Positions 718 through 62,830 of a stretch of 64,000 nt of DNA are shown here, one piece after another. How positions within the stretch are numbered: the stretch's first letter is position 1; the number at the start of each line of letters is the position of its first letter. The notes under the pieces are model-generated. The model saw only the letters and a program-made list of their open reading frames with translations. It searched no databases and had not been told where the DNA came from. The position numbers and the translations under genes were made by a program. This DNA comes from Sabellastarte sp. h YS-2021 (Eukaryota > Annelida > Polychaeta > Sabellida > Sabellidae), in the NCBI GenBank assembly GCA_964017235.1, contig OZ024929.1, forward strand, positions 157,899,609 through 157,963,608, written 5' to 3'.

Positions 718-811
718 GTACTTGTGATCCAAAACACTTTCAGCTGGAGTAGAGGAATAACAAAACTACATTCTCTGATGCCACTGAAAAATCAATTTTA
801 TTGCGCTAATG

Positions 812-994
812 TATCTTACCTAGTGGACCGGTGCAATAGTCCGGCGCCTAGCTGGTCCCGCCAAACATTAGAAAAAAATGTCCTGAGCTGGGCTCTGGCC
901 TGGACCGGTAGTGTAGTATTCACTCGCCAGGTGTCACCGGACACCCAGCTCCCCTACTGCGCGTGTGCGCACATGCGCACTTCCTCTTTTTGTT
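812..994 (+). repeat. DIRS-A left inverted terminal repeat
   Basis: This 183-bp segment is the reverse complement of 6884-7066 with a few mismatches. It begins TATCTTACCTAGTGGACC and is preceded by the terminal TTTTATTGCG at 797-806. In DIRS elements the left ITR also acts as the promoter region. Confidence 0.92.
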
Positions 995-1108: not shown

Positions 1109-3212
1109 ATGGCATCACCAGGACAATGTAGAGGTAACTGCGGGCACATTATGGCTGCATTTGATGGACATAAAAAGTGTGCCAGGTGTAGAGACAAAAA
1201 GTTGGGGAATGACCCTTGTGTGAAGAACCAATTATGTACTATTTGTGATTCTTTTACCGAACAACAACGTTCTATGCTCTCCACCCCTCAGTATAAAATC
1301 AGGAAAGATAAAAAGTCCGGACTTTTGGTATCCCCCTCCAAGGTTACCGTGGTGGGTGTAGTTCCCCAGGAGGATTTGGGTGGAGACGAAGTAGAGGAAG
1401 AAGACGTTCCGGTTCAAGCTTCCGGTTCCGGTGAACAAGAGGTTTTCTCTATTACCCATCATTCTCCCGAAGAATTTGTCTCAAAACAAGACTTTGACAA
1501 TCTTAACAACAAACTAGAGGAAAAGTTCGCCCGATTCGAGGCATTACTTACTAGGACAAACATCTTCTCTACACCTAAAGTCCCAGTTACCAATACTGCG
1601 GTTACTACTTCTGAACAACCATTCTTCAATCCCTCTGAGCCTGGAGCCACCGGTCCGGTGAGGCCTCCGGCTTCAGACGGGCAAATTTCACATCCAAAGT
1701 ACGCAAAGAATAAGGGCACGGGAAAGAAGCTGAAAAAGAAAAAGACTGTTCCTACTGCTACAGTTGTGTCTGAGGCACCGGCTCCGGTGAAGGAACACAC
1801 TGTAAGCACTTCCCTGCCTACTCAGAATACTGAGCAACCGGCTAAAGTGGACATACCCGTTCCGGGCCCTGCCTTGTCACTTTCTTCCGGTGGTGATTCC
1901 ATCTCCAAGCCAGCTACCCTTTCAGGCTCTTCCACCTTGTCGGCTTCTGTCACCGGTGCTTCCGGTGTCAGTCAGTCCTTCTTTGCTGATCCGGACGCTT
2001 CTGATGTTGAATCAAACCATGACCAGTCTAACAAGGACTCTGATGAAGGTGAGATATCAGACTCTGAGGCCACAGAGCAAAACGAGGAAATGAACTATCG
2101 CGAAACATGTAGAGCTGTCAGGGCCTTTTTAGGATGGACTCATATCCCAGATTTTGAACTTTCAGTATCGGATGGGGATACCTCAAACAACCCGTGGAAA
2201 GGCAAACGACCTAGAAAGACAGGCAAGGTTTCAGTGGAATTTCCCCCAGATGACTGGCTCTGTCACAAGATGGAGAAGTTGAATTGCAGGGTCGCTGAGG
2301 GTTATCCCTCACGTTCACAGGAATCAGCGGCCTTGAAGGTTGACCAGTTCATCCGTACACCTAAAAGCCAATCCAACTGGTACAGACAGCATAGGCTTAG
2401 ACAAGAATCCACTTCTAGACCAGGTAGAACCATCTTTAGTTGGTCGGACTCTGAGGCCCGCCTGAATGCTCAGTACTCTAGGGTAGCTAAAGCCTCAGCT
2501 TATCCTCAGTCTGGTCCCACTTCCCGCCCGGTATCACAGGATATTTTACGCCGGTGGGAAAAATGTGCCAGAGAAGGGACATACATTACCAACCACGCGG
2601 CAGCATTTAACCGATGCACCAGTGAGATTCAAGACAAGATGAACAATCATATCAGTTTACTTAATGATGTTATTGTTAAGGGGAAAGCCCCTAAAGAGGT
2701 TGTAGATGCCATCAGAGATCTCAAAGACTTGTCTTCCTTTCACTCAAGTGTCTCTGTGGCACTAGGAACTTCACTCCCAACACCTTGCGGACGGCTTGTT
2801 CATTCAACTAGCTAACTTCATCTTACTCCGCAGGGATTCTTATCTTGAATTTGCTAAACCCGGTTTGAAACCGGATTCTTGGAACAGATTACGTAATGCT
2901 CTGCTGTTCAGTTCTTCCCTGTTTCCAGATGATATCCTAGCTGCAGCGGAACAGGATATAGCAAAGTTTGAGTCTACACCAAGTGCTCAAGGTCCCAGTC
3001 CGGGCACAGGGCAGCACTCTGGTAGGAAACACCAGTCATATCGTTACAAGCCATATGACAAGAAAGATAGTAGGCAATCAGGCCACTCTTCCTCTCAGTC
3101 TAGCCAGGCTTGGCGTCAGTTTTCTTATAGAGGAAGGGGTCGCGGTCGCGGACGTGGAGGCAGCAATTCCAGTCATTTCTCCAGATCGTCCCGTCAACAG
3201 TCTTATAAATGA
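1109..3212 (+). CDS. DIRS-A gag-like protein (one frameshift)
   Basis: This is the putative nucleocapsid/gag protein of the element. The ATG at 1109 was chosen because MASPG also starts the DIRS-B copies, rather than the in-frame ATG at 1070. The N-terminus carries a Cys/His cluster (C11, H13, H21-x2-C24-x2-C27, C37, C43-x2-C46) that looks metal binding. Residues 60-340 are a Pro/Ser/Thr-rich and acidic linker. From about residue 345 comes a conserved domain (DDWLCHKMEKLN; RRWEKCAREGTYI), and the C-terminus is an RGRGRG-rich basic tail. The first frame stops at 2815; the conserved continuation lies in another frame from about 2779 to 3212. A one-base insertion in a CCC run near 2775 explains the break. 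It overlaps pol. Confidence 0.85.
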
Positions 3213-5500
3213 CTATTGTTTGGTAGATCCTCAGTTAAAGTCAAGTGTGGAGGATCCAATGTGTCAGGACTTAAACAAACCTGTAATCAAGACTGTAAAC
3301 TTAAATGTTGTCTATCATGCATCTTGTGTAACCGGGCTGTCGGAAAACAAAGACATAAGACCCAATCAGGCCCAAAGAGAAATAAAGTGTGTGAAGCCTG
3401 TTTGCTGTGTAAATCATTGTCTTTATGTTCCAACTGTTCAAAATGTCCCTCATGTTGTAGAAAATCCACCTGTGGGGGCCCGACTGCAAAGGTTTTGGCA
3501 GGTCTGGCACTCCCTGGGTGCAAACACAAGAGTAGTTTCAATTCTTCAGGAAGGGTACACCCTACCCTTCAAAGAGAAACCTCCTCTGACAAGGTCACCG
3601 GTAATTATCAGTGGATACGCAAATCCAGTCAAAAACAAGCACATAAAGGACTCTTTACAGGCACTCCTTCAGAAACAGGCGGTAGAAAAGGTGACAACCC
3701 CATCCTCCCTGGCCTTTTACAACCGCTTGTTTCTTGTACCAAAGCCCAACAGGAAATGGAGGCCCATCCTAGATTTAAGTTGGATGAACTGTTACCTAGC
3801 AACCTCATCTTTCAAGATGGAGACACCAGAGACCATCCGACCCTCCCTTCAAAAAGGGGAGTGGGTGACGTCTCTGGATTTCAGCGATGCTTACTTCCAT
3901 ATCCCAATAGGACAAAGGTCGCGGAAATTCCTCAGGTTCTTCCTCCACAGTCAAGCTTATCAGTTCACAGCTCTCCCCTTTGGCCTCTCAACGGCTCCGT
4001 TGGAGTTCACAAAGGTGGCCAAAGAAGTCAAGTTAATGGCACAGGCTCGGGGTATCAGGATCCAACAGTACCTCGACGACTGGTTGCTGAGAGCCCCTTG
4101 CCCGGAAACGTGCCTACTTCATACCCGGACCCTCTTGGACCTATGCCACAGGTTAGGATGGGTAGTCAATATGACCAAGTCGGAGTTGGTGCCTCAGCAG
4201 GTATTCAACTTTGTAGGCTACCGTTTCGACCTCTCTCAGGGGCTGGTCAAACCGACCCAGGAGAGGTGGATGGTTCTGTCCCAAAAGATCAGCGACCTCC
4301 TCAATCAACAGGTGTGTTCGGTCAGACAGTTCATGTCCCTTATAGGGCTACTAACAGCCACAGAGAAACAGGTAGTAGCCGGACGGCTCCACATGCGCCC
4401 TATCCAGTGGCATCTGAAGAGGCAGTGGCATGTCCCGGAATCATTAGAAAAGATTATTCCTCTGCCTCAGTCCCTTCATCCACACCTGAGGTGGTGGTTG
4501 CACCCAGGCAACGTCCTAAAAGGTCAACCTCTACACCCATTGCAACACGCTCTTCAACTGTTTACCGACGCCTCAAACGAAGGTTGGGGTGCTCACTTAG
4601 GTGACTTCACAGCAAGAGGCCTCTGGTCCACGCAAGAAGGCACCTTGCATATAAACTTGCTGGAACTCAAGGCTGTATTACTAGCCCTAAAATGGTTCGA
4701 GCGGTTGTGTTGGAACCAGACCATTCTGGTGTGTTCCGACAACACGACAGTGGTCTCTTACATAAACAAGGAGGGCGGTATGAAATCTGGCTCTCTCTGT
4801 GCTCTCCTCTGGAGGCTGCTGATGTGGTGCAACCAGAGGCAGATTGTATTACGGGCAAGGCATATTCCCTCACCTCAATGTCATTGCGGACAAGTTGTCC
4901 CGACACGGTCAGGTGATACAAACGGAATGGTCCCTCCTCCAGGAGGTCTTCGACCAGATTTGCAGAAGATGGCACAAACCGGAGGTAGACCTTTTTCCGA
5001 CCAAGTTCAATCACAAACTTCCCAGGTTTGTGTCCCCGGTTCCGGATCTACTAGCCTGGAAAGTGGATGCTCTAAGCGTTCCCTGGCGAAATCTGGATGC
5101 CTATGTTTTTCCCCCGGTGGCTCTCCTAGGGAAGGTGGTCTCCAAGTTGATGGATCAAGGATTCCACAGAGTCATTCTCATTGCTCCAGGGTGGCCCAAC
5201 ATGCCATGGTTTTGGGATCTGGTCAGCATGTCGGTACAGATTCCCCTAAGTCTGCCGAAAGTAGGGAACCTATTGACTCAACCCTTCAATCAGTGTCCTC
5301 ACAGAGACCTTCACAGTCTGAATCTGCATGCATGGCTCCTAGGGCCTTTGCCATCCAACAGGCAGGCTTCTCTGAAGAAGTGGCAACACGAATTGAAGCT
5401 CCTCAGAGACGTTCAACCAGAGCCATCTACGAATCAAAGTGGTCCGTTTTTGTCAGATGGTGTGAGGAACATAAGGTGGACTTCAGGTCTCCTTCTATAA
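2968..5500 (+). CDS. DIRS-A pol: RT, RNase H, methyltransferase-like
   Basis: This protein copies the element RNA into DNA. RT motifs include WRPILDLSWMN, SLDFSDAYFHIPI with a catalytic Asp, LPFGLSTAP and YLDD at 4069-4080. RNase H follows with LFTDASNEGWGAHL, LLELKAV and CSDNTTVVSYIN. Near 4873 the frame shifts by an indel of one or two bases, after which the last RNase H motif (IADKLSR) and the DAM-like domain (VDLFPTKFNHKLP, YVFPPVALL, ILIAPGWPNMPWFWDL) continue in a second frame to 5500. The true start is uncertain: the frame is open from 2968, inside the gag tail. The last 169 nt overlap YR. Confidence 0.9.
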
Positions 5501-6408
5501 AGCAGATCTCTGACTTCCTGCTTTTCCTATTTCAGGAGAAATATCTTCAACCTAGCACGATAGATGGCTATAGGACCGCTATATCCGACAAGATAGGAAA
5601 TGGCCAGGTAAACATTGGTAAGGATGAGAATCTCACCAGACTGTTGGACAGTTTCCATAGGGACAAGCCTAAGGGTAGGAGGGGTGTTCCTTCCTGGAAC
5701 CTTTCCTTGGTTCTTCATCAGCTCACGAAACCTCCCTTTGAACCTCTTAGGAAGGCTTCCCTTAAACATCTTACCTTTAAGACGGTCTTCCTTCTTGCCT
5801 TAGGGTCGGGCAAAAGAAGAAGTGAGATTCATGCCTGGGTGCATAAGAACATCAGACATCAGGAGGATTGGTCTAATGTCTCGCTGTACCCTTCCCCAAG
5901 CTTCATCTCCAAGAACCATCTGGCTAAGGAGGGTCCAGGTTGTGTAGCCCCGGTTATAATCCCGGCTCTTGCTCCGACCTTGGACAAGTCTCTTAAGGAG
6001 GACAGGACCTTGTGTCCTGTGAGATCCTTGCGTTACTACATGTATTTAGACAAAACCAAGGACCTTTGGACAGACAAGGAATTGGTTTTCGTCTCCTTTA
6101 GGAAGAGCTTCAAGAAAGACATTGTACCAGCGACTGTCTCTTCCTGGATCAAACAAACGATTGGCTTATGTTACCAACTCTGGGATGAGCAGTCTCAAAA
6201 TTTCAATCAAGTTCGGGCCCATGATGTCCGGGCTTTCGCGGCTTCCAAGGCTTTTCAGGGAGGCGTACCCTTAGATCAAATTCTATCAGTCTGCCATTGG
6301 AAGTCTCATAACACATTCACCCAGTTCTACCTAAAGGATGTAGCCTGGGCAGACTCTGAGCTATACCACTTGGGCCCGGTGGTAGCGGCTCAACAGATTA
6401 GAGATTAA
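5332..6408 (+). CDS. DIRS-A tyrosine recombinase
   Basis: This is the integrase of the DIRS class, which inserts the circular DNA intermediate by site-specific recombination. The frame is intact for 358 codons. The catalytic set is visible: Arg in GSGKRRSEIHAW (5803-5838), His and Arg in HDVRAF (6220-6237), the CHWKSHN motif, and the nucleophilic Tyr in TQFYLKD (Tyr codon 6328-6330). The start is the ATG at 5332 (MAPRAF); the open frame extends further upstream because pol shares this register before its frameshift. It overlaps the end of pol by 169 nt in a different frame. Confidence 0.93.
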   Translation: MAPRAFAIQQAGFSEEVATRIEAPQRRSTRAIYESKWSVFVRWCEEHKVDFRSPSIKQISDFLLFLFQEKYLQPSTIDGYRTAISDKIGNGQVNIGKDENLTRLLDSFHRDKPKGRRGVPSWNLSLVLHQLTKPPFEPLRKASLKHLTFKTVFLLALGSGKRRSEIHAWVHKNIRHQEDWSNVSLYPSPSFISKNHLAKEGPGCVAPVIIPALAPTLDKSLKEDRTLCPVRSLRYYMYLDKTKDLWTDKELVFVSFRKSFKKDIVPATVSSWIKQTIGLCYQLWDEQSQNFNQVRAHDVRAFAASKAFQGGVPLDQILSVCHWKSHNTFTQFYLKDVAWADSELYHLGPVVAAQQIRD

Positions 6409-6531: not shown

Positions 6532-6593
6532 CTCTTCTCTCCTCCCCTCTTCATGAGTGTCATATTTCTGAAAGAAAAAGGGGGGGGGGGGGG
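6532..6593 (+). promoter_or_regulatory. DIRS-A pyrimidine/purine block with G14 run
   Basis: A 21-nt all-pyrimidine tract (6532-6552) is followed by a 24-nt all-purine tract (6570-6593) ending in 14 G, between the YR stop and the ICR. The same arrangement occurs in the DIRS-B and DIRS-C copies. The purine tract looks like the polypurine primer of LTR elements, but DIRS replication models do not use one, so the role is unknown. Confidence 0.6.
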
Positions 6594-6730
6594 TAATGTA
6601 ATGTAACCGAGATGGTTAGGAACCGGTCTAGGTTTGTTCCCTCGGTCTATATGATGTTTGGGAGTTATCTCCCATAGTGAGTCCCCTGATTTTTTTATTG
6701 TTCTACCCGCCATCCAATGGGTAGTTATTC

Positions 6731-6826
6731 TGCACCGGTCCACTAGGTAAGATATATTAACGCAATAAAATGGAAAATTTAAGAATTAAATTAAATTTTT
6801 ATAAGATAATATCTTACCTAGTGGAC
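6731..6826 (+). repeat. DIRS-A internal complementary region
   Basis: The first half (6731-6771) is the reverse complement of the left end (about 795-833), and the second half (6772-6826) is the reverse complement of the right end (about 7050-7104). This is the diagnostic DIRS ICR, thought to template circle closure. It contains AATAAA at 6764-6769, a possible poly(A) signal in the sense direction. Confidence 0.92.
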
Positions 6827-6883: not shown

Positions 6884-7066
6884 AACAAAAAGAGGAAGTG
6901 CGCATGCGCGCACACGTGCAGTAGGGGAGCTGGGTGTCCGGTGACACCTGGCGAGTGAATACTACACTACCGGTCCAGGCCAGAGCCCAGCTCAGGACAT
7001 TTTTTTCTAATGTTTGGCGGGACCGGCTAGGCGCCGGACTATTGCACCGGTCCACTAGGTAAGATA
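6884..7066 (+). repeat. DIRS-A right inverted terminal repeat
   Basis: Reverse complement of 812-994. The element continues about 38 bp beyond it in an AT-rich right extension ending TTTTCC near 7104, which matches the second half of the ICR. Confidence 0.92.
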
Positions 7067-7510
7067 TTATCTTATAAGAATTTAATTTAATTCTTAAATT
7101 TTCCAATTAATATTCTAGTTAGTGCTGTCACTCGCTGGTGCAAATTAACATTGAATATCGCCCACGTTGGCCGACCGAGTGCCGGCATATGTCGACTTCA
7201 TAAACTCACAAAACGAAACTATTTAATTAATATGTAAAATAATATTTTATTGCGTTAATACAATGGACAATTGCTTTACCGGTCGGCGCGACCAGTCCCG
7301 CCAAACGCCAGAAAAAGACGTCCTGTACATAGTACCGGCAGGACCGGTCAGTAGTGTGCATTCGCTAGGTGGCGCATCATACTTGCTTCCTGTCTAGACA
7401 GAGTGACGTCAGTTCATCTTTTTCGTTTGGCGCGTGTAGTGTGCAGACGTGTTTTGAAGTGATCTCCAAGTTTTGAAGAAACGCGGCTTATTCTACGAAT
7501 TTAAAGCTTA

Positions 7511-12559: not shown

Positions 12560-12941
12560 GTAAGCTGTATGTAGTCATGTTAAAAAAAATGTTACAAATA
12601 ATCTGCACTTTACATAAGTGTAGATCAGTTGTGCCAGTATATTTGTATCCAGAAGTACTATTACAAAATATTGTGACTTGCTTCTCAGTTGCAACAAATA
12701 AATTGGTGATAAAATAAGAAAAGGACGATAAATCTGAAGTTTAAATTTTTCGTCCAATATCTTTGTAAATTTTTTCTCTGGCAGTGATTTCGGAGAGTAT
12801 ATTTTGTTTTCATAAACTGTTCTTGTTATTAACTGTTCTATCTATTTAGCACAAAACAGTTTTGCATTGGTTCGATGCCACTATGAAAAATATACCACTG
12901 ACCGTATCCCTAATTAACATAATATTTTGTTGCGCTACAAT

Positions 12942-13088
12942 AGCTTACCATGTGGGACTGAATGCTGATCTCGGATGGCCGTAAGGCATCAGGCCAACGT
13001 CTAAGAAAAATAGACATTTATAGTTGGGCAAAGCCTCAAGTTGTCGTCACGTGATAACCTTTGACCTTTCGTCCTACTTTCTTGTTGG
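12942..13088 (+). repeat. DIRS-C left inverted terminal repeat
   Basis: It pairs with 16612-16759 over about 147 bp with roughly ten differences, including AAGGCATCAGGCCAACGTCT and GTTGTCGTCA in both. Confidence 0.88.
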
Positions 13089-15936: not shown

Positions 15937-15990
15937 TCCTTCCCCTCAGACCAGGCATCCTCGGAAAGAAAAGAAGGGGGGGGGGGGGGG
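15937..15990 (+). promoter_or_regulatory. DIRS-C pyrimidine/purine block with G15 run
   Basis: A short pyrimidine tract (15937-15947) precedes a 28-nt all-purine tract (15963-15990) ending in 15 G, directly after the YR stop. It is equivalent to 6532-6593 in DIRS-A. Confidence 0.6.
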
Positions 15991-16450
15991 CACATCCGCT
16001 ACAACCAAGTCTTCAGGAGTCTAATCCTAGGATCTAGGTATGGGTTTGCCTCTCAAGATGTTACGGTAAGGTCAATTTTTATTTTTTAGTTATCGAGTAT
16101 ATATGTATTAAGGACTTAGCAAGTTGTCATTAATCTCATAATCGGTGGCAAAAATTTATGAGAATTTCAACCATTGGGCTGGTTTTTCAATCGTGATAAC
16201 CCATAAGGGCTCTTACACCTCTAAGTGAGCATGGCTGCACTTCTCTCCTATCAAACATCTCAACAGTTTTTAGCACTGTCATTCATTCTATTCAGGTTTT
16301 TGGCTCTTTACAGGCCTGGTCTTTGGGATTGGGGCACTGTAAATGGGACTCAGACTGGTTTTTCTAACATTCATTCTAATCTATTGCTTCAAAATCTAAG
16401 AAAAATTGACGTATCTTCCAGTCTCAGCTGTCACTGGGCGGTTGGATTCA

Positions 16451-16552
16451 GCATTCAGTCCCACATGGTAAGCTATTGTAGCGCAATAAAATTGAAAATT
16501 TTAATTACTTAAAGGTAGCTTTTATAAGCTTCAAGCTTACCATGTGGGACTG
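16451..16552 (+). repeat. DIRS-C internal complementary region
   Basis: The first half is the reverse complement of the left end (12924-12966) and the second half is the reverse complement of the right end (16745-16799). AATAAA lies within it at about 16484-16489. Confidence 0.9.
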
Positions 16553-16611
16553 AGAAGAGTCCCACCCTGCCTCCCCTCTGTATTACAGCTGAGGGGTAAG
16601 GTTTAAAATTT

Positions 16612-16759
16612 TCAACGAGAAAGTAGGACAAGAGGTCAGAGGTTATCACATGACGACAACTTCAGGCTACGGCCAACTATAAATGTCAATTTTTCTTAGA
16701 CGTTGGCCTGATGCCTTACAGCCATCCGAGAACAGCATTCAGTCCCACATGGTAAGCTT
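16612..16759 (+). repeat. DIRS-C right inverted terminal repeat
   Basis: Reverse complement of 12942-13088; followed by an AT-rich extension to about 16799. Confidence 0.88.
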
Positions 16760-17129
16760 GTAGCTTATAAAAGCTACATTTAAGTAATTAAAATTTTCAA
16801 ATTTATGAAAATAGCCTGTACATAATTATTTGTAAGTATTCTTATTTTCAGTTATTTTTACATCTCTTTAAGAAAGGGGAATTGTGCTTTCTTTGCCAAC
16901 TGGCTTTCAACTTTTATTTCCATTCATCTAAAGGAAACATTTTACAGGCATCCTTCCAAATTTGCATCTATAGGTCCATTATATTAATAGCCTTCTTGAT
17001 CTTTCAGGCCCATTATAAAAAAAAATACCCACCAGAGTCTCACCCATTATAACATTATACTTGTATACTTTTATTTCCATGTCTCGAGTTTTGGAGATGA
17101 TAAACTTTTGTGGTTGTAAATATTTTCAG

Positions 17130-17260: not shown

Positions 17261-20200
17261 TTTATGTCGTCACTCTGCGGCGTGGGCGTACGCGTGAACA
17301 ACTTCTCCTCCAAAACTACAAGGTCTAGAGACATGCTGTTTTTTTTAAAAGATACCTTATCTATCGAGGATGAAAAATTGTTCAAGGCATGCAAATCTGT
17401 CTGTTCATCTGTTTGCTAGAGACATTACAAGGGGGGTACCCCCAACAAAAGTGTGAAAATTTCAACACTGTATCACAATTTTCTCAGTGACTATTGAAGG
17501 GATTTCTCTCATATCTTGCATATATGTACTAGGCCAGAGGTAGATTCTCTTGTGTGAGTATGAGACCTGGATCTGTCTTAATTTTTTTTTAATAAATTTT
17601 TTTAATTATTTATGCATTAAAATTCATGAAATCATGCACTAAATCACTTATAACTTGAAAAGTATTGCATTTAGAGCATTTTGTTAAAATATGTTATTCA
17701 GCTACTTTTTTCATAGCTACAACATGGTGAGTAACTTGGGTGTCTGTCTCAATAGCTAAGTGAGTAATAGCTACTTTTGGGCTTTTCAGTAACTTCCATC
17801 ATGAGTAAAATCACTTATAACTTGAAAACTATTGCATTTAGAGAATTTTATATAAATATGTTATTCAGCTACTTTTGGGTCAGCTATAACATAGTAAAAT
17901 TTCAGACCTGTAGCTCATGGCATAGCTGAGTAATAGCTACTTTTAGGTTATCACTGTTGAGTAAATCACTTATAACTTGAAAACTATTGCATTTAGAGTA
18001 TTTTGTTTCAATATGTTATTCACCTATTTTGGGGTCAGCTATAACATAGTGAAGTTCCAGACCTGTGGCTCCTTGCATAGCTGAGTAATAGCTACTTTGA
18101 AGTTCTCACTGTTGAGTAAATCACTTGTAGTTGGAAAACTATTGCATTTAGAGAATTTCATATAAATATGTTATTCAGCTACTTTTGGGTCAGCTATAAC
18201 ATAGTAAAATTTCAGACCTGTAGCTCATGGCATAGCTGAGTAATAGCTACTTTTAGGTTATCACTGTTGAGTAAATCACTTATAACTTGAAAACTATTGC
18301 ATTTAGAGTATTTTGTTTCAATATGTTGTTCACCTATTTTGGGGTCAGCTATAACATAGTGAAGTTTCCAGACCTGTGGCTCCTTGCATAGCTGAGTAAT
18401 AGCTACTTTGAAGTTCTCACTGTTGAGTAAATCACTTGTAATTGGAAAACTATTGTATTTAGAGAATTTCATATAAAGATGTTATTCAGCTACTTTTGGG
18501 TCAGCTATAACATAGTAAAATTTCAGACCTGTAGCTCATGGCATAGCTGAGTAATAGCTACTTTTAGGTTATCACTGTTGAGTAAATCACTTATAACTTG
18601 AAAACTATTGCATTTAGAGTATTTTGTTTCAATATGTTATTCACCTATTTTGGGGTCAGCTATAACATAGTGAAGTTCCAGACCTGTGGCTCATTGCATA
18701 GCTGAGTAACAGCTACTTTGAAGTTCTCACTGTCGAGTAAATCAGTTGTAATTGGAAAACTATTGCATTTACAGAAATTTGTGTAAATATGTTATTCAGC
18801 TACTTTTGGGTCAGCTATAACATAGTAAAATTTCAGACCTGTAGCTCATGGCATAGCTGAGTAATGGCTACTTTTAGGTTATCACTGTTGAGTAAATCAC
18901 TTATAACTTGAAAACTATTGCATTTAGAGTATTTTGTTTAAATATGTTATTCACCTATTTTTGGGTCAGCTATAACATAGTGAAGTTCCAGACCTTTGGC
19001 TCATTGCATAGCTGAGTAACAGCTACTTTGAAGTTCTCACTGTTGAGTAAATCAGTTGTAATTGGAAAACTATTGCATTTACAGAAATTTGTGTAAATAT
19101 GTTATTCAGCTACTTTTGGGTCAGCTATAACATAGTAAAATTACAGACCTGTAGCTCATGGCACAATTGAGCAATAGCTATTTTCAGGTACTGACTGTTG
19201 AGTAAATCAGCTGTAACTTGAAAAATATTGCATTTGGAGTATTTTCTTATAATATGTTGTTCACCTACTTTTGGGTCAGCTATAACATAGTGAAATTACA
19301 GACCTATAGCTCATGGCATAGCTGAGCAATAGCTATTTTCAGGTTCTCACTATTGAGTAAATCAGTTGTAACTTGAAAACTATTGCATTTACAGTAATTT
19401 GCTTAAATATGTTGTTCACCTACTTTTGGGTCAGCTATAACATAGTAAAAATTCAGACCTTTATCTCATGGCACAATTGAGCAATAGCTGTTTTCAGGTA
19501 CTGACTGTTGAGTAAATCAGCTGTAACTTGAAAACTATTGCATTTGGAGTATTTTGTTATAATATGTTGTCCACCTACTTTTGGGTCAACTATAACATAG
19601 TGAAATTACAGACCTATAGCTCATGGCATAGCTGAGCAATAGCTATTTTCAGGTTCTCACTATTGAGTAAATCAGTTGTAACTTGAAAATATTGCATTTA
19701 CAGTAATTTGCTTAAATATGTTGTTCACCTACTTTTGGGTCAGCTATAACATAGTAAAAATTCAGACATGTAGCTCATTGCATAGCTGAGTAATAGCTAC
19801 TTTGAGGTTATCACTGTTGAGTAAATCATTGTATCCACTGGACAGTCGCAGTGTGTAGAGAGATTTCACCATTACCGCTCTAACGAAAAGTACTATAGCT
19901 AGCCTTCTTAAGTTTGCAGGATATATTAATAACCATGAAATGTTGCCTGGGAATATTTTTGGCCTCATTTTGAAAAACAAGACGGCCATCAGGGATGTTT
20001 ATTCGACTTTAAACAAGGACTTTTGTTGGCCCCCTAGAGCAAAGGGTATTATAGGTGGAGATCTCAAATTCACAGGATATGTTCCTCATTTTGAAAAACA
20101 AGATGGCCGCCACAGGTGTTTCTTTGTCAGTCATGAAAAGTGCTTATATCTCCTTTATTATTGGTCCTAGAGGTTTGGTATGGTAAACCAACCTGTAGGA

Positions 20201-24285: not shown

Positions 24286-24306
24286 GGGGGGGGGGGGGGG
24301 GGGGGG
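24286..24306. repeat. G21 homopolymer run
   Basis: 21 consecutive guanines, 26 bp after the hairpin; prone to G-quadruplex formation and to length errors in assembly. Confidence 0.9.
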
Positions 24307-32799: not shown

Positions 32800-34670
32800 G
32801 AAGTTCTGGGTTCGAGTCCAAAATTAGTCACCACACTGAGGGAGGGCTACACCCTCCCCTTCCGGTTCAGACCCAGCTTGACAAGGTCACCAACTGTAAC
32901 AAGCAACTACCACAACCCAGCCAAGCAGTCCTTCCTTTTAGAAGCACTGTATCAGCTGGTGAACAAGAATACAGTACAACCGGTAGAAAATCAAAACTCA
33001 CGGGGTTTTTGCAACCGGCTATTTTTGCTACCTAAGCTCAACAACCGGTGGAGACCTGTCCTGGACCTGAGCACCTTGAACACCTTTTTAAACTCAGAGT
33101 CGTTCAAAATGGAGACCCCAGAGGCAATAAGAACCTCCCTACAGGCAGGGGAGTGGGTCACATCCATCGACTTCAAGACGCATACCTCCATATACCAATT
33201 CCCATGGAGTTTCACAGTGGTGGCCCAAGAGGTCAAACTCATGGCACTTCAGAGGGGTATAAGGATTCACCAATACCTAGATGACTGGCTGGTGAGAGCC
33301 TCTACCCTCGACACTTGTCTCCAGCATACACAGACCTTAGTAACCCATTGTCAAGAACTAGGGTGGCTGGTGAAAAGTCAGAACTGGCTCCCAACAGGTT
33401 TTCACCTTCGTAGGTTACCAGTTCGATCTGAAAGAGGGGAAGGTCAAACCCACACCAGAGCATTGGCAGGCCTTGACAGACAAGATCCAGTCAATACTGT
33501 CCGGTCCGCCTGGTCCGGCAGTTCATGTCCCTCATAGGTCTACTCACAGCAACAGAAAAGCAAGTCCACCTAGGGCAACTTCACATGAGGCCCATACAGT
33601 GGCACTTGGAAAACAACTGGAGGGTCCCAGAGTCACTAGAAAAGGTGATCCCGGTCCCCAGATAGCTCCATTTCCATCTAAGGTGGTGGCTGGAGGAAAG
33701 CAATGTGCTGTTAGGTCAACCATTACACCCTCTAAAACATGCTCTGCAAATATTTACAAATGCATCAAAAGAAGGGTGGGGCTCTCACTTAGATGAGCAC
33801 ACTGCAAGGGGAACTTGGTCCCTTTCCAGAAAGCAATTTACACAATAACCATCTAGAGCTAAAGCAGTCTTTCTACTGCAACAAGACAGTACTGATAGCT
33901 ACAGACAACACAACAGTGCTTGCCTATATCAACAAAGAGGGGGGGGGGGATGAAGTCGGGCTCTCTGTGTGCCCTACTGTGGAGAATCCTGTCCTGGTGT
34001 ACCAGGCAGCAAGTAACCCTCAGGGCACGTCACATCCCCGGCCGGGTGAACGTGATAGCAGACAAGCTATCCAAGCTTGACCAGACCATTCAAATCAGAG
34101 TGGTCACTTTATCCAGAAGTGTCCCAAGCTATATGCTCCCGGTGGCATCAGCATCAAGTGGACCTATTTGCCACCACATTCTACAACAAACTCCCACAGT
34201 TTGAGTCATCGGTCCCAGACCCTCAGGGATGGGCAGTGCACACACTCGGCCTTTCCTGGGAGGACCTGGACCCATACGCCTTCCCACCTGCAGCCATCTT
34301 GGGCAAAGTGGTGGAAAAGTTGCAGGACTACTCTTGCAACAGGATAATCCTGATTGCCCCAGGGTGGCCCAACATGCCCTAGTCCTGGGATCTAGTGGCA
34401 ATGTCCAGTCAGATCCCACTATGTCGGCCCAACATACCCAACTGGGTGTCCCAGCCATTCAACCAGTTTCTTCACAGGAACCTGTCAAATCTGGATCTTC
34501 ATGCTGGGCTCCTAGAGCCTCAGCAATCAAGGAGCAGGGCTTCGCTGAGGCAGTGGCAGCACGAATTAAGGCTCCTCAAGAGGATCAACCAGATCTGTCT
34601 ATGAGGCCAAGTGGACCGTTTCTTACAAAGTGGTACCGCAGTAATCAGGTGGACTTCAGGGCACCACCTC
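32800..34670 (+). pseudogene. DIRS-B pol, decayed
   Basis: Recognisable pieces in shifting frames: RLFLLPKLNNRWRPVLDLST, METPEAIRTSLQAGEWVTS, then a deletion removing the middle of the RT palm, and EVKLMALQRGIRIHQYLDDW with YLDD at 33274-33285. RNase H shows ATDNTTVLAYINKEGG and RHIPGRVNVIADKLS (33895-34075). The MT-like domain spans 34100-34400 (VDLFATTFYNKLPQF, PYAFPPAAIL, LIAPGWPNMP) and then meets a stop. The RT cannot be functional. Confidence 0.88.
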
Positions 34671-35653: not shown

Positions 35654-35707
35654 CCTCTTCCTCTCTCCCTTTTCTTAGATTATTTCTGAGTAAAAAAGGG
35701 GGGGGGG
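35654..35707 (+). promoter_or_regulatory. DIRS-B pyrimidine/purine block with G10 run
   Basis: A 23-nt pyrimidine tract (35654-35676) is followed by a 16-nt purine tract (35692-35707) ending in 10 G, 98 nt after the YR stop. Equivalent to 6532-6593. Confidence 0.6.
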
Positions 35708-35851
35708 CAATGTCGGTAGTCTTCCGGGTAACCGGTTAACTGGTAACCGACCTTGACCTCTCAGGGTTCTCTGACCCTAGGTCTCAGGTTAATTTTTATT
35801 GAGTTCATTGAGTCCCTAGTAGCTTACCCGCCTTCCAAGCGGTAGTTATTC

Positions 35852-35945
35852 AGCAATTGTCCATTGGATAGGATGTATTAACGCAATAAAATTGCAAATT
35901 TAATAAGTAAATTAAATTTTTATAAGTTAATACCCTATCCAATGG
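35852..35945 (+). repeat. DIRS-B internal complementary region
   Basis: Its first half is the reverse complement of 30166-30210 and its second half the reverse complement of about 36170-36223. It includes AATAAA at 35884-35889. Confidence 0.9.
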
Positions 35946-36008
35946 ACAGGCAAGGCCCACCCAACCGACCCTGCTACCAGCTTACTAGGGGTCTAAATCT
36001 GTTTAGAC

Positions 36009-36181
36009 AACGAAAAAGATGAACTGACGTCACTCTGTCTAGACAGGAAGCAAGTATGATGCGCCACCTAGCGAATACACACTACTGACCGGTCCTGCTG
36101 GTACTATGTACAGGACGTCTTTTTCTGGCGTTTGGCGGGACCGGACGCGCCGACCAGTAAAGCAATTGTCCATTGGATAGG
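36009..36181 (+). repeat. DIRS-B right ITR (copy at 30166)
   Basis: Pairs with 30184-30357. TGACGTCA is preserved at 36025-36032. Confidence 0.92.
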
Positions 36182-36223
36182 GTATTAACTTATAAAAATT
36201 TAATTTACTTATTAAATTTGCAA

Positions 36224-36833
36224 TTTTTAAGAAGATGGGGCTTACACCATGACTCAATCCTTTTGAAAGACGGTCTGGATCTGCTAAAATACTGCACGTC
36301 AGCCAACTATTTTGTCTATCCAGCATAATTTATGTCCTTTTGAATTTCATCCGCTTCAGTCTTTAACCAAAGCTGGTGACAGTACAATTCTACTGAATTC
36401 GTGTTATCAAAATACCTAGATACTGGCATTCTCCAACAAAGTTTAATGATTTCTATAGAGTATTACCAGCACCTCAAGCAGAATAAGGGTTGGTCAGACA
36501 AGGCCAGTTTTATGCAGGGCATATATGTATAGTACAGTAGTCCTGTCTCATTTGAGATTACACACATTTAACGCAAGCTGAAAATTTTACAAATGAATCC
36601 AACTTGTATGACAGAGTTGTGCAAGTTCGACTGAAACTGAAAGAGAACTTTATAAACCTTCTTGCATTACCAGCAGCTTTGCTAGAAAGGGGAGGGGTGC
36701 ACATTACTTTGTCCCCCATTGTCGGTGTCATTATCACTCTTTATTTCTGGATGGTATCTAAACAACAGCTTTATGGATAATTTTCAAATTGGGATGTGGA
36801 TGAAACGAACTTTTAAGAGATGTGTTTTGGTCA
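36224..36833. other. Unannotated stretch between DIRS-B and BEL
   Basis: No gene or clear repeat. Its right end (CTGGG) is the target site of the BEL element and continues at 43801. Confidence 0.5.
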
Positions 36834-37225: not shown

Positions 37226-37237
37226 TTCCCCCCAGTT
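37226..37237 (-). promoter_or_regulatory. BEL polypurine tract
   Basis: In element orientation AACTGGGGGGAA directly precedes the 3' LTR (TGTTA...), the expected site of plus-strand DNA priming. Confidence 0.8.
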
Positions 37238-37771: not shown

Positions 37772-40700
37772 TTACTGTGAGCCATATGTGTGTGGTTTTC
37801 GTACAACCCGACCTGTACGTGTGGTTACATGGATTTCTTTGACAGGTTTCACAGAAGACCTTACTGAAGGCTTTACCAAATGTGCAGTCTTGGATTTCCT
37901 GTGTTTAGTTATTACAGGAGACATTTGGCAATCATCACTGGGCAGTGCTTCATCCTTTGCACTTTCAAGAAGGTGGAGTTTTTGTACAGGCCGAACACAA
38001 CTGCCCTTTGCTGTCTTTAATCTTACAGTCCTGATACGTCCATCGTCTGATGGCATGAGGTCAATAATCCTGGCTAATGGCCATTGGAGTCTTGGAAGAT
38101 TGTCTTCTTTAATGAGAACAACAGATCCCAATAGTAAATTACCTTTCTCTTTAAATGTAGGAACCATCCTTGGAAGTCCTTTTAGATATGAATTACTCCA
38201 CAACTTCCAGAACTTGTGTAGCTGTTGTGTTCCAGTAACTAAGGATTTTTGTATTGATTTTGGTGTGGAGAAGTCAAGGTTTTCTCTGTTTAACACAAAA
38301 TCAGCTGGTGTTAGTGGTCGAATGTCAGTTGGTGCATCAGTAACTGTAGTCAATGGTCTTGTGTTCACCACATACTCGATTTCAGGTAAGACAGTTTCAA
38401 GTTCATCCTTAGTAATTGTCTGGTTTCCTAACACCTTTTTCAGATGTGATTTTACTGTGCGAACCATTCTCTCCCAGCAGCCCCCTTTCCAAGGTGATCT
38501 TGGTGTGATAAACTTCCACTGGGGTGCTTGGTCTCCATACATAATATTAATTTTGTCTCTAGCCTTAACAAACGTTGATGCATTATCAGAATACATTGTT
38601 TGTGGTATACCTCTTCTGGCTGAGAAGCGCCGGAAGGACTTCAGGAAGTCTTCATGTTTTAAACTTGAAGTAAGCTCAAGATGCACAGCTCTGATAGTCA
38701 TGCAAGTGTACAAACATATATAATGTTTCTCATCTGTGTCTGTTACATATAATGGTCCGGCAAAGTCTACACCAGTGACTGCAAAGGGATGTTGTTTGGT
38801 AACTCTCTCTTTGGGCAAATTGGGTGACTGTTGATTGCAAGCAGTTGCTTGAATTCTCTGACATTGGAAACACAGCTTTACTTCTGACTTGGCCATTCTT
38901 CTGAGGCCTATGATCCAATACTTCTGACGGATAGCATTTAACAAAGTTGATATGCCTGCATGATGCATGGATTTGTGATAGTCTCTCACTACAAGTCTGG
39001 CTAACCAACATCCTGGAAGGATAACAGGATGGACAGATTCATAGGAAAGATCAGAGTTTTCCAAGCGTCCCTTGATCCTCATGATTCCTGTGTTGTCCAG
39101 GAAGGGGGTCAATGGGTACAACTTTGAACCTTTTGGAATTGAGCTTCCTTTCTGCAAAAGCTTGATCTCATCTTGAAAGTAAGCTTTCTGGGTGCACCTG
39201 ATCAAAGTTTCTTTTGACATTGCTAACTCTGTAGGGGATATGTGACCCACCATTTTCTTTGCTTTGGATCTGCAGTTTGCTATGAAGCGTAACACAAAAG
39301 CCATGACTCTCATAGCTTTAGTGAACTTTGACCATCTTTCACATGAAATGAATGGCTTTGTGAACCTATTCTCTATTAATGTTCGTGAATCATCTCTATC
39401 ATCTGATTTTATGTCTTCCTGATGGGCATAATAAGACACAGGCCAGCTGGGGCTGTTCGGAGCTGAGTTAATGTCTGAAGAGTCTGGATTCTGATGTGGG
39501 AGCAAATCCATTGCAGGACTGACATATGCATTTACACATCTTATAAACTTTGTAGCAGGTACTCCTCTTGTCAGAGCATCTGCAGGGTTCTTCTCTCCTG
39601 GTATATGGCGCCAAAGTGAGGGATCAGTTGTTTCTTGAATAGCCATAACTCTATTGGCTATGAATGGTTTCCATTTGTCTGGACTTTGCTTGATGTATTG
39701 CAGGGCAATTTCACTGTCAGTATAACATTGGTAGTTAGTTTTCTCAAGGCTTAATGCTGTCTTGACCTTCTTCAGCAATAGTGATCCCATAACACACGCA
39801 ATCAACTCAAGTCTTGGTAAACTGACCTTTTTGATTGGTGCTACCTTTGCTTTAGCAATGATCAAGGAGAAACCTTGGCTGGACTTCAGGTAGATTGCTG
39901 CACCATATGCCTTTTCACTAGCATCACAGAAAACTGTCAAACTCTTGTCTTCATCTGTGTACCTATTTTGTATATACTGTCTTTTAACTTTGAAATGATC
40001 CTTAATTTCTTGGAGGCCTTCAATCCATTTCTTAAACTCTTCATTGATCTGTGGTGTTACTTCTTGATCCCATTCCAGTCCTTGAAACCAAGCTTCTTGG
40101 AACAAAATCTTTGCCTTAATGATATAAGGGCTAATGTATCCCAATGGATCAAACACTCTTGCAATGCAGGACAAGATGAGACGTTTGGTTACAACAACTT
40201 CAACAGGAATCTTGATTCCTCCATAATGAAACTCGTCAGTCTCACTGTCCCAGAATAATCCCAGCACTTTTGTTTCTGGAATGTTGCTATCTTTGAATTC
40301 TTTGACATTTGACCTCCATTTTGCAAGAGGCATGGAGGCATCTTGCATGATCTGATTTGCCTCTCTGTAAAGAAGATTTGCTGCAGTGGCATTATCCTCA
40401 CCAGTCAATAAGTCGTCTACATACAGGTTCCTTTTCAGTTCTTCTGCTGTTTTACTATTGTACTTAGACAGATGGACCTTTAATGTTCCATTCAGGATAA
40501 ATGGAGATGAGTTCAGTCCAAAGGGAAGTCGCCTAAATCGCATAACTCTCAGGGAACCATTTTCAGTTGGTAGGAAGAATCTGCAGCTGTCTTTGTCTTC
40601 TTCACTCAGTTGAATTTGAAGAAATGCCTTTGAAATATCTGCTGTTAATGCTACTTGGTGTGTTCTGAATCTTATCAAGATGTCAACTATGTCATTCTGG

Positions 40701-49578: not shown

Positions 49579-50684
49579 GTGCCCGTGAACGGGCTCTATG
49601 TCAGCTGACTGTGTGTTTTGAGTTTCAGAGTAGAAGTGAATGAAAAAAAGGACACAAAAGTTGTGCCCTGCAAATGGTATTCAGAAGTAAAGTACAAAGT
49701 TAACTCTTAAGATGTAAAAAGTTGGTGAAAAACATATGTAAAGAAAATACTGTACATGCAATAGATTTCAAGTTACAAGAAATTTCCTCAACAGTAAGAA
49801 TCTTAAAGTACTTTTGCTCAGCTATACAATGGGCTACAGGTCCCATTTTACTATGTTATAGCTGACCCAAAAGAAGGTGAATAACTTATTTAAAGAAAAA
49901 TCTCTAAAATGCAATAACTTTCAAGTTTTAATTGATTTACTCAACAGTGAAAAACTGAAAGTAGCTATTGCTCAGCTATACAATGAGCTACAGGCCTGCA
50001 ATTTCACTACGTTATAGGTGACCCATAAGTAAGTGAATAACATATTTAAACAAAATTCTATAAATGCAATAGTTTTCAAGTTACAACTCATTTACTAACC
50101 AGTGAGAACCTGAAAGTAGCTATTGCTCAACTATGCCATGAGCTACAGGTCTACAATTTCACTATGATTTTGCTGACCCATAAGTAGGTAAATAACATAT
50201 TTAAACAAAATTCTCTAAATGCAATAGTTTTCAAGTTACAACTAATTTACTTAACAGCAATACTCTGAAAGTAGCTATAGCTGAGCTATGCAATGAGCTA
50301 TAGGTCTGCAATTTTACTATGTTATAGCTGACCCAAAACTAGGTGAACAACATATTTAAACAAAATAGTCTAAATGCAATAGTTTTCAATATACAACTCA
50401 TTTACTCAACAGTGAGAACCTGAAAGCAGCTATGGCTCAACTATGCAATAAGCTACAGGTCTACAATGTCACTATGTTATAGCTCACCCATAAGTAGGTG
50501 AATAACATATTTAAACAAAATTCTCTATATGCAATAGTTTTCAAGTTACAACTCATTTACTCAACAGTGACAACCTCAGAGTAGCTATTTCTCAGCTATG
50601 TAATGAGCTACAGGTCTGCAATTTTTCTATGTTATAGCTGACCAAAAATTAGAAGAATATTTAAACAAAGTACTCTAAATGTAA
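49579..50684 (-). repeat. Composite satellite repeat, copy 3, proximal part
   Basis: Minus-strand copy: hairpin end (49579-49594), unique end, then about six satellite monomers (49790-50670) in reverse orientation. It is interrupted at 50685 by a DIRS-B insertion; the array resumes at 56677. Confidence 0.8.
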
Positions 50685-50703: not shown

Positions 50704-50888
50704 TCCTATCCAATGGACAATTGCTAATTCGGTCGGCGCAGATTGGCCCGCCAAACGACAGAAAAAGTCGTCTTATATGAGTGCATAATGCCCCCACAAG
50801 CTGGTCGGTCCCACTGTGCACTCGCCAGATGGCGCCTCGTACTTCCTTGCTGTCTAGACAACGTGACGTCATAGCATCTTTTTCATTT
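50704..50888 (+). repeat. DIRS-B left ITR (copy at 50685)
   Basis: Pairs with 56429-56605. Contains TGACGTCA at 50864-50871; the partner site in the right ITR is degraded. Confidence 0.9.
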
Positions 50889-55929: not shown

Positions 55930-56087
55930 CCCTTAGAGGAGATATGTAGACATGTATATATGTACATAGTGTAGTTAATATTTACATGTACATAATAATA
56001 ATAAAAAAAACACAAAAAAAATACAAAAAAAACTGTGACATGCTTCCTTCGGGAGGTTTATTTCTACTTCTTATGGGACTGAACTCA

Positions 56088-56137
56088 TCCCTCTCTTCCC
56101 TTACCTCAGAGCAGTTCTGTTTAGAAGGGGGGGGGGG
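56088..56137 (+). promoter_or_regulatory. DIRS-B pyrimidine/purine block with G11 run
   Basis: Pyrimidine tract 56088-56102 and purine tract 56123-56137 ending in 11 G, about 190 nt after the YR stop. Equivalent to 35654-35707. Confidence 0.6.
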
Positions 56138-56289
56138 TACTGTCGGTAAACCGGTTGCTTATCTGACTATGGCCTCAGGGGTCTACCGAACTCAGGGTTG
56201 ACCCAGGCCTTTTGTTAGAATTTTGTTAGTTTTCTTTATGAGTTCCTTTTAAGTCCCTAGTAACTTACCCACCAACCAAGCGGTAGTTA

Positions 56290-56370
56290 TTCAGCAATTG
56301 TCCATTAATGCAATAAAACTGCAAATTTAATAAGTAAATTAAATTTTTATAATACCCTATCCAGTGGAGA
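56290..56370 (+). repeat. DIRS-B ICR, slightly eroded
   Basis: Reverse complement of both ends, but with short deletions (TCCATTAATGCAATAAAACT instead of the longer form). AATAAA lies at 56312-56317. Confidence 0.82.
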
Positions 56371-56428: not shown

Positions 56429-56605
56429 ATGAAAAAGATGCTGTCACGTTGCCTAGACAGCAAGGAAGTGCGAGGCGCCATCTGGCGAGTGCACAGTGGG
56501 ACCGGCCAGCTTGTGGGGGTATTACGCACTCATATAAGATGACTTTTTCTGTCGTTTGGCGGGCCGGTCTGCACCGACCGGATTAGCAATTGTCCATTGG
56601 ATAGG
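56429..56605 (+). repeat. DIRS-B right ITR (copy at 50685)
   Basis: Pairs with 50704-50888; followed by a degenerate AT-rich extension to about 56676. Confidence 0.9.
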
Positions 56606-56676
56606 GTATTAACTTTAAAACTTTATTAACTTTTAAATTTAATTTACTTATTTATTTATTTTACTTATTTATTTTT

Positions 56677-57440
56677 GCCATGAGCTACAGGTCTGCAATT
56701 TCACCACGTTATAGCTGATTCAAAAGTACATGAATAACATATTTAAACGAAATTCTCTAAATGCAACAGTTTTCAAGTTACAAGCAATTTACTCAACAGT
56801 GATAACATGAAAGTAGCTATTACTCAGCTATGCCATGAGCTACAGGTCTGCAATTTTACTATGTTATAGCTGACTAAAAAGTTGCTGAATAACATGGTTA
56901 TACAAATTTCTGCAATAGTTTCAAGGTACTCCACAGTGATAACCTCAAAATAGCTATTGCTCAGCTATAATATAAGCTACAGGTCTGCAAATTTACAATG
57001 TTATAGCTGATCCAAAAGTAGATGAATAACATATTTAAAAAATACTCTAAATGTAATAGTTTTCAAGTTCTAACTGATTTACACAACAGTGACAACCTCA
57101 AAGTAGCTATTACCTGTACTCAGCTATGCAATAAGCTACATGTCTGAAACCTTACTATGTTATAGCTGACCCAAAAGTAGCTCAATAACATGTTTATACG
57201 AAATTCTCTAAATGCAATAGTTTTCAAGTTACAAGTGATTTTACTCACTATGGAAGTTACTGAAAGTCAAAAAGTAGCTATTACTCACTTAGCTATTGGG
57301 ATAGACTCCCAAGTTACTCACCATGTTACAGCTACGGAAAGAGTAGCTGAATAAGATATTTTAACAAAATGCTCTAAATGCAACACTTTTCAAGTTGTAA
57401 GTGATTTAGTGTATGATTTCATGTATTAAGTTTAATGTAT
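56677..57440 (-). repeat. Composite satellite copy 3, distal part
   Basis: Continuation of the satellite array on the minus strand after the DIRS-B insertion; about five monomers, the last ones being the divergent edge type also seen at 17640-17760. Confidence 0.8.
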
Positions 57441-61154: not shown

Positions 61155-61255
61155 AGGAAATGGTAAGTATTTATCTAATAAAAATTGAAATTACAACAAA
61201 ATGTTTCAATTTTATTGCGAAAAATACACTTAACATGTCTTGACCATAGCTGAAT
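61155..61255 (-). repeat. DIRS-D internal complementary region
   Basis: One half (GGTCAGGAAATGGTAAGT, ATTTATCTAATAAAAATT) is the reverse complement of the right end. The other half contains TTTTATTGCG followed by CTTAACATGTCTTGACC, presumably matching the left end beyond the window. Confidence 0.8.
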
Positions 61256-61839
61256 GCAGCCTTCATGGAAGGACGACAGTACTAGAATTTAAAGATCCAG
61301 TACACAGCCCTAAACAGTTACCATGCACAAAACAACCATACAGGCATTCAAACCCAAAACTCACTTCCCCATGAGGCAGTGGGACTGATGAGCACTGCAA
61401 AACAACAAAGCCTTGTAGGAAAGAGGAAATTATTTAGAAACCAAACTAAGCTACAGCTAAACATCATGAGAAATTTACATTGAAATTTACACGCCTTCAA
61501 AACATATAAACTTCCAACAATCACACATACCATCCAAAAACACCACTAAATAGTAGTATGTAGTTGTAGTTCTCATAATGCGGAACACTGTTTGTACAGC
61601 TGTTGAATGTTGTAAATAGACAAACATACAACACCCACACCAGATCAAACCCCAAACTTGAAAGTGTCATCAGCATAATGCATAACGTTTTTCAAGTCAG
61701 GATAAAGTAAAACTGTTGTGTAGTACAAAACATACAGTGTGCAGACATACATGCAAATGCATACAAAAGTACAAATATAAGTATGAACCTATACTTATAA
61801 AGTAACAAAGTGTAGGAACTAATTTCAAAAACTGACCCC

Positions 61840-62830
61840 TAGCCAACAGAGGACATGAGTCAGAAATTGGTAAAAATATTATGGTTTCTGGTAACATGCA
61901 TTCAAAATCATGTACAAAAACACCACCTTTAAAAGCTAAAGATGCAGTCATAAGACATACATCATGAGCTTTGATCTGACATAATTGCTGAGACTCAGAA
62001 TCTGACTTCTCCCAAGCCAAAAGGATAGTCTGCTTCAACCAGGATGAGATAGTTTCCCTGGAGATATCTCCTATAAAGCCCTCCTTAATAACTACTAACA
62101 AAAGATTCTTATGCCTCCTTAAATCCTTTGTCTTACCTAAGTAGAATTAGAAAGCCCTTATGGGACAAAGAGATCAATCTTGAGTGAAGCTGCTGTCCAA
62201 ATGAGGATTGAGAGCTGGAATGACCACAGGCTTAATTGCAGCAGGCCTATCCGAAGCCAACTGGTTCCTGGCTAATATGGCAGTTCATGGCCAGAGCCAC
62301 CAGTGACCAATTCTCCTTACAACTAAGAGAAGAATATGTCCAAGCATGAATTTAACTTCCTCTTTTGCCTAATGCCAAAGACAAAAGAAAGACTATCTTG
62401 AAAGTTAATAACTTCCAGAAGCCTTCCACAAAGGCTCAAAGGGTTGTTTGGTGAGACCAAGCAAGACCAGCGACAAATGACAAGGAGGGATAAACCCACT
62501 GACTACTGGTTTTTCTCCATAAAATGTTGCCAATAATCTATTCAGCTCAAGACATTTAGAGACTTATTCACCCTTCAAGCCCAACCCATCTGCAATTGCT
62601 GTTCTGTAATCAGCAATAGTAGATGGCTTAAGATTCATTTCCTCAAACAAGTAGTTTCTACATCTGAAAAAGTGGGATTTGAGATGTCCAAAAATGGATC
62701 ACCTTGAGTCATAAATTCTCCTTAAGGAAGCCTCTTAGGAACCTTAATTTGCTTTGCCACTTCCTCTGAAAATCTTTGTGAAAGTACATGACTGACTCCA
62801 GATGCCAAGCATGAAGATTCAAGTAAGCTT
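61840..62830 (-). pseudogene. DIRS-D tyrosine recombinase, HxxR lost
   Basis: The best piece is GFIGDISRETISSWLKQTIL and QIKAHDVCLMTASLAFKGGV (62080-61910). The second catalytic Arg is Cys (HDVC). Further on the frame shifts and the position of the nucleophilic Tyr reads as a stop. N-terminal parts (62700-62100) are traceable only in scraps. Confidence 0.78.

Follow-up and report, generated by a model that had tools for sequence, protein, structure and literature searches.

Each of the four forward DIRS-type retrotransposons of the window, by which we mean the whole analysed stretch of 64,000 nt (Sabellastarte sp. h YS-2021, contig OZ024929.1), carries a purine tract that ends in a long G-run and lies between the end of its tyrosine recombinase (YR) region and its ICR. 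The same arrangement was observed in most copies sampled from this genome, and we consider the tract to be probably the plus-strand primer (polypurine tract, PPT) of DIRS retrotransposons. The sequence-only reading had listed an RNase H-resistant primer among several roles; the anatomy of the sequence and its conservation in this genome favour that role, while priming itself is what we infer from them.

Analysis of the window led to four forward elements (E1–E4) and two minus-strand copies (E5 and E6). As in DIRS1-like retrotransposons, inverted terminal repeats (ITRs), an ICR complementary to both termini and RT, RNase H-like and YR-like regions occur together in a single element, a structure that has been described for the group (PMC3266345). 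The reverse transcriptase of E1 matches PF00078 (E-value = 1e-18). Concerning the RNase H-like region, PF17917 is below the cut-off in E1 (17.6 vs 24.8 bits) and above it in the relative P0031 (27.4 bits). For the recombinase, PF00589 is below the cut-off both in E1 (14.5 bits) and in the relative P0034 (25.9 vs 27.1), and several relatives carry precomputed PF00589 labels. The ITRs are complementary over 183 nt in E1 (98%), 146 nt in E2 (92%) and 168 nt in E4 (93%), and inverted-repeat matching within the window found no left ITR for E3. Both halves of the ICR could be matched to the termini in E1 and E2, and E4 presents a short terminus match only (23 nt at 91%). The right ITR lies 3' of the ICR in E1–E4. 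E3 and E4 belong to related families, being 84% alike over a 251-nt YR segment. Additionally, the minus strand carries a Bel-Pao LTR element (37772-43159). The window gave no match to Rfam at the gathering threshold and none in a tRNA scan. Several arrays of tandem repeats of about 155 nt, partly inverted, lie near DIRS copies (17653-19813, 44482-46329, 49890-50659 and 56587-57378). The features are listed below; ITRs, the ICR of E2 and the right terminus of E3 come from inverted-repeat matching, and the purine and pyrimidine tracts were read from the sequence.

792..994, plus strand: left ITR of E1
2968..6408, plus strand: E1 reading frame with RT, RNase H-like region and YR (1146 residues)
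6532..6552, plus strand: E1 pyrimidine tract, clade-specific
6570..6593, plus strand: E1 purine tract GAAAGAAAAAG14, candidate plus-strand primer of HIV-1 PPT-like form
6731..6826, plus strand: E1 ICR, with inverted matches to the left (792-835) and right (7050-7111) termini
6884..7111, plus strand: right ITR of E1, of which 183 nt are 98% complementary to 812-994
12924..13087, plus strand: left ITR of E2
15963..15990, plus strand: E2 purine tract GGAAAGAAAAGAAG15
16448..16553, plus strand: E2 ICR
16613..16806, plus strand: right ITR of E2
35654..35676, plus strand: E3 pyrimidine tract
35692..35707, plus strand: E3 purine tract A6G10
35850..35948, plus strand: E3 ICR, right half (35888-35948) 100% complementary to 36167-36227, left limit set by eye
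36167..36227, plus strand: right terminus of E3
37226..37233, minus strand: GGGGGGAA abutting the 3' LTR (TGTTAAAT...) of the Bel-Pao LTR element, for in-window comparison
50705..50872, plus strand: left ITR of E4
56123..56137, plus strand: E4 purine tract AGAAG11
56298..56370, plus strand: E4 ICR, limits set by eye
56438..56657, plus strand: right ITR of E4, ending at about 56657
61235..61870, minus strand: E6 interval (YR end at about 61870, ICR at about 61225), a decayed DIRS copy with an ICR and no tract, a counter-example

The four purine tracts claimed by the sequence-only reading were all found at these coordinates, with G-runs of 14, 15, 10 and 11 in E1–E4, and their placement 3' of the YR end and 5' of the ICR was borne out in every case. 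All four consist of purines only, an A-tract followed by a G-tract on the plus strand, and the G-run is followed by CA in E2 and E3 and by TA in E1 and E4. The window holds seven G-runs of at least 8, every one on the plus strand, and no C-run of that length. Six of the seven lie inside DIRS copies, namely the four tracts and two runs in RNase H coding sequence at 33939 and 54302. A G21 at 24286-24306 lies outside any recognised DIRS copy. Under a first-order Markov model (40 simulations), about 1.1 G/C runs of 8 or more would be expected per 64 kb on both strands, whereas the four YR-to-ICR intervals, 1,468 bases in total, hold four of them; the occurrence of the tract is thus far above chance, which is a poor explanation for it. 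Concerning the minus-strand copies, the YR-to-ICR interval is deleted in E5, and that of E6, scanned for a G-run, contains none longer than 4.

DNA-level sampling covered the window's own genome (1.79 Gb), whose copies share ancestry. A tract-free YR protein probe of one family led to 150 scored places from 52,452 first-look candidates. The first 50 copies fetched were the best 30 loci and 20 more distant places at 88–93% amino-acid identity, and where a copy had no ICR motif its first 400 nt were scored instead. Together with an E2-type YR probe, a G-run of at least 6 was present between YR and ICR in 57 of the 60 fetched copies (47/50 and 10/10). Among the first 50, a run of at least 8 G was found in 42, while C-runs of at least 6 occurred in seven and of at least 8 in none. 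The tract is missing from L020, where the ICR is present and the interval shortened, and from L043 and L044, in which no ICR motif was detected. The probed copy of L056 carries G14 at 150 nt 5' of the ICR motif. All ten E2-type loci fetched have a G-run of at least 8, and one of them (L059) has lost the A-tract and kept the G-run. Over the 173 YR residues of the probe, no difference was seen among the 150 places scored for the E2-type family (L059–L068 listed), which suggests a very recent burst.

A search by pattern was made as well. The exact 18-mer GAAAGAAAAAG8 occurs at 948 genomic places and its reversed-letter control at none. The eight places fetched all lie in DIRS-like sequence; seven broadly match a YR, ICR or ITR stretch of E1, and the remaining one (L006) has an E2-type tail and one shorter match. 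As background, the YR-bearing loci, with the interval set aside, held five G/C runs of 8 or more in 144,294 bases, and 15 arbitrarily chosen stretches held three in 45,000 bases, none of these three having the A-tract/G-run/CA form. The two outcomes that the sequence-only reading had set against its own proposal, absence from most intact DIRS copies and equal frequency in arbitrary DNA of the genome, are therefore not what was found in this genome. Collections of viral contigs, other genome contigs, plasmids and phages yielded no DIRS DNA.

Conservation was followed in 19 representatives less than 88% alike in the interval (three from the window, four tract-pattern loci and 12 YR-probe loci, the 16 locus representatives being required to have the ICR motif). 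The copy scored in L056 was here a neighbour of the probed one, on the opposite strand, and that used from L008 a neighbour of the pattern hit. A G-run of at least 6 is present in 19/19 of them against 0.48 expected from mononucleotide shuffles, and one of at least 8 in 16/19 against 0.58 from dinucleotide shuffles, although not all representatives are independent of the tract. Column identity averages 0.78 in the G block, against 0.47 in the preceding 40 columns and 0.53 in the spacer; it is 0.87 over the stretch that leads from the ICR-side hairpin into the ICR itself. YR, tract and ICR follow one another in this order in each of the 42 YR-selected copies that have a tract as well as an ICR motif. 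In 41 of these the end of the G-run lies 147–163 nt from the AATAAA motif of the ICR, and in the other one 126 nt. The same distance is 168, 492, 175 and 172 nt in E1, E2, E3 and E4, respectively, and 185 nt in the neighbouring copy of L056. The junction is also shared, with CA following 38 of 48 runs in the first sample and 10 of 10 in the E2 type. The length of the G-run is hypervariable, ranging from 6 to 33 in the first 50 YR-selected copies and from 8 to 24 among ten copies that do not differ over the stretch covered by the YR probe. An A-tract with an intervening G is found in several families; in several, the A-rich part includes C or T, and the tract of such families is thus not purely purine. 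Just 5' of the ICR, E1-like families have a block of strong conservation that contains a short stem of the TACCC...GGGTA type, at 6700-6740, 35820-35860 and 56260-56300 in the window and in most representatives; it is a possible recombinase site or polymerase stop.

The form and placement of the tract recall the primers of retroviruses. The HIV-1 PPT has eight A with a single intervening G, then six G, and is preceded by a U-tract (PMC5766924); in E1, too, the coding strand shows eight A, interrupted by one G, before a G-tract. E1, E3 and part of the families have a T-rich stretch 5' of the tract, and others do not. As is established, LTR elements begin plus-strand DNA at such a tract just 5' of the terminal-repeat block (PMC5766924), and the DIRS tract resembles it in lying 5' of such a block and in belonging to an element that itself encodes RT and an RNase H-like region. 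The Bel-Pao element of the window offers a nearby parallel, with GGGGGGAA immediately 5' of the TGTTAAAT of its 3' LTR. The DIRS G-run measures 6–33 against the six G of HIV-1, and its A-part contains pyrimidines in some families. Unlike an LTR PPT, the tract does not abut the terminal repeat and lies 126–163 nt from the ICR motif in YR-selected copies, 168–175 nt in E1, E3 and E4 and 492 nt in E2. HIV-1 also has a central PPT, a second copy inside pol (PMC5766924), with which the second G-runs in the RNase H coding sequence of E3 and E4 can be compared; unlike the central PPT, these break the reading frame, and E1 has the motif without a run.

If the tract is the primer, the element's own RT-RNase H would copy the transcript into minus-strand DNA and degrade the RNA except for the purine fragment. 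This fragment would be cut just 3' of the G-run, most often at G|CA, and would then prime plus-strand DNA. Plus-strand strong-stop DNA, measured from the G-run to the right end of the element with the ends placed by eye, would span 816 nt in E2 and about 520 nt in each of E1, E3 and E4; it would hold the ICR, followed by the right ITR. The 3' end of this DNA could fold back onto the ICR of the same strand, because the right half of the ICR is complementary to the right terminus (62 nt at 95% in E1, 68 nt at 96% in E2, 61 nt at 100% in E3). Copying of the ICR would then complete the right terminus and add the left one, and the new end, being complementary to the 3' end of the minus strand, would permit strand transfer and the closing of a circle for integration by the YR. 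This path of priming, cleavage and transfer is proposed from sequence anatomy. It draws on the frequency of the tract in YR-selected copies (57/60) and representatives (19/19), the pattern control (948 vs 0), the near-fixed distance to the ICR, the HIV-1 PPT-like form, the coding capacity for RT and an RNase H-like region, the placement ahead of the terminal repeats, the column conservation of the G block and, in one family, the independence of the run from the frame. Against the primer stand the variable G-run (6–33 instead of six), the pyrimidines in the A-part, L059 without an A-tract, the decayed E6 without any tract, the distance from the terminal repeat and the origin of all DNA evidence in one genome whose copies share ancestry; moreover, slippage of G homopolymers alone could help to keep a run.

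Slippage can also be taken further, the tract being then a slippage-prone G homopolymer handed down from an ancestor and without present function. The range of lengths, 8–24 among ten copies with an identical YR probe region and 6–33 in others, would agree with this, as would the G/C runs of 8 or more seen elsewhere (three in 45 kb, five in 144 kb and the G21 of the window). We nevertheless hold it to be quite unlikely, since all 19 representatives keep the run at one place, whereas the spacer columns average 0.53 identity, the reversed-order control gave 0 against 948, and interruptions are few (8/128 parsed protein tails, from listings that favour the tract). Long G-runs can form quadruplexes, and a role in RNA or double-stranded DNA, as a G-quadruplex or as a 3' UTR element for pausing or stability with an effect on 3' end formation, export or packaging, has to be weighed too. 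The tract is indeed a 3' UTR feature, or in the E2 type sits at the extreme end of the frame, and other UTR motifs are conserved nearby. However, a quadruplex or a pause would need neither the A-tract nor the common G|CA junction (38/48; 10/10), and pairing between pyrimidine tract and G-run is not general, which makes a role of this kind unlikely in our view.

That pairing bears equally on the idea that the pyrimidine tract and the G-run function as one unit, a hairpin or triplex. An all-pyrimidine tract had been claimed upstream of each purine tract; it is long and clean in E1 and E3, but interrupted in E4 and only about 10 nt long in E2. Beyond the window it is present in L001–L005, L007, L008 and the neighbouring copy in L056, and absent from the L009 family and others among the YR-selected copies inspected, so that several families lack it and it is treated here as clade-specific. 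By eye, the pyrimidine tracts might also be read as 3' splice acceptors (YYYYCAG), a reading that would leave the families lacking them unexplained. In each of the four window copies the G-run is indeed paired with pyrimidines upstream of it in the minimum-energy fold, yet the RNA folding z-scores are -0.95 in E1, +0.91 in E2, -2.93 in E3 and -0.94 in E4, and folding on the G-run goes clearly beyond shuffles in E3 only. A hairpin as a general feature is hence not supported and was rejected, its pyrimidine arm being missing in several families, and we regard a hairpin or triplex as the functional unit as very improbable.

A coding feature, either a glycine tail of the YR or a programmed frameshift, was suggested by the E2-type family, in which the YR frame extends across the tract in 130 of the 142 proteins listed and stops short of it in 12. 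A glycine-coded G-rich run appears in 129 of the 130 read-through proteins, P0189 having lost it, and the run is interrupted in eight of 128 parsed protein tails; these listings favour the tract, as some of the queries contained it. The frame after the G-run is nevertheless distributed over the three phases at similar rates (51/40/37 of 128 parsed), and the run is therefore not maintained for its protein product. The tract of the other families seen is located well 3' of the stop codon. A coding or frameshift role is thus scarcely credible, and we reject it on account of the free downstream frame and the non-coding position in the other families seen. A central PPT was also considered for the second G-runs of 11 and 8 G at the INKEGG motif of the RNase H coding sequence (E3 33939-33949, E4 54302-54309). 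It is unsupported: E1 spells the motif without a run (GGCGGT), and no glycine expansion at the motif was seen in the listed related proteins. With the run absent from E1 and the frame disrupted by the runs of E3 and E4, slippage is more likely there.

The accepted model of DIRS copying includes no purine-rich primer site like that of retroviruses, and the tract, at its near-fixed place 5' of the ICR, would be a candidate for the second-strand primer of these elements. In the portions of the literature consulted, stem-loop priming has been postulated for DIRS RNA (PMC3601003) and the replication mechanism with the ICR as template is called 'experimentally not fully proven' (PMC5633606). Circular DIRS-1 cDNA has been reported for laboratory strains of Dictyostelium (PMC5633606). 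The word 'purine' does not occur in the main text, as far as it was available, of six papers that describe DIRS elements (PMC3266345, PMC2685390, PMC6681497, PMC5633606, PMC9210276 and PMC3783388), where ITR/ICR structure or templating is described. The polypurine passages retrieved from PMC3587641, PMC5445492, PMC8775202, PMC3601003, PMC8905726 and PMC5006619 concern LTR elements, the title of a reference or abbreviations, not DIRS. No report of a purine tract in DIRS was found in these excerpts; the classic DIRS papers are outside their scope and may hold an earlier mention.

We also entertain, at slightly less than even odds, a wider reading in which DIRS elements start their second strand from a true PPT and use the ICR as a fold-back template on the strong-stop DNA, the PPT being a remnant of an LTR-type ancestor that exchanged its integrase and direct LTRs for a recombinase and inverted repeats. 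If so, folding back onto the ICR would perform the strand transfer that LTR elements make with direct repeats, and DIRS and LTR elements would be tied by a common replication signal. The primer reading predicts the 5' end of plus-strand DNA to the base. The tract can additionally serve as a landmark for annotating DIRS copies.

Finally, other motifs of the YR-to-ICR interval deserve mention. TGTAHATA, which we take to be the consensus of Pumilio/PUF sites, occurs one to four times in the first 130 nt after the YR motif in 50/50 copies (L009–L058), against an expectation of 0.023 per copy from mononucleotide shuffles. In the window, three such motifs are found in E4 (55953-55994) and none in E1–E3. 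They may tie DIRS RNA to germline PUF proteins, and the term UGUAHAUA occurs in PMC4995099. An A-rich stretch follows 3' of the TGTA motifs, well 5' of the G tract, in most representatives.
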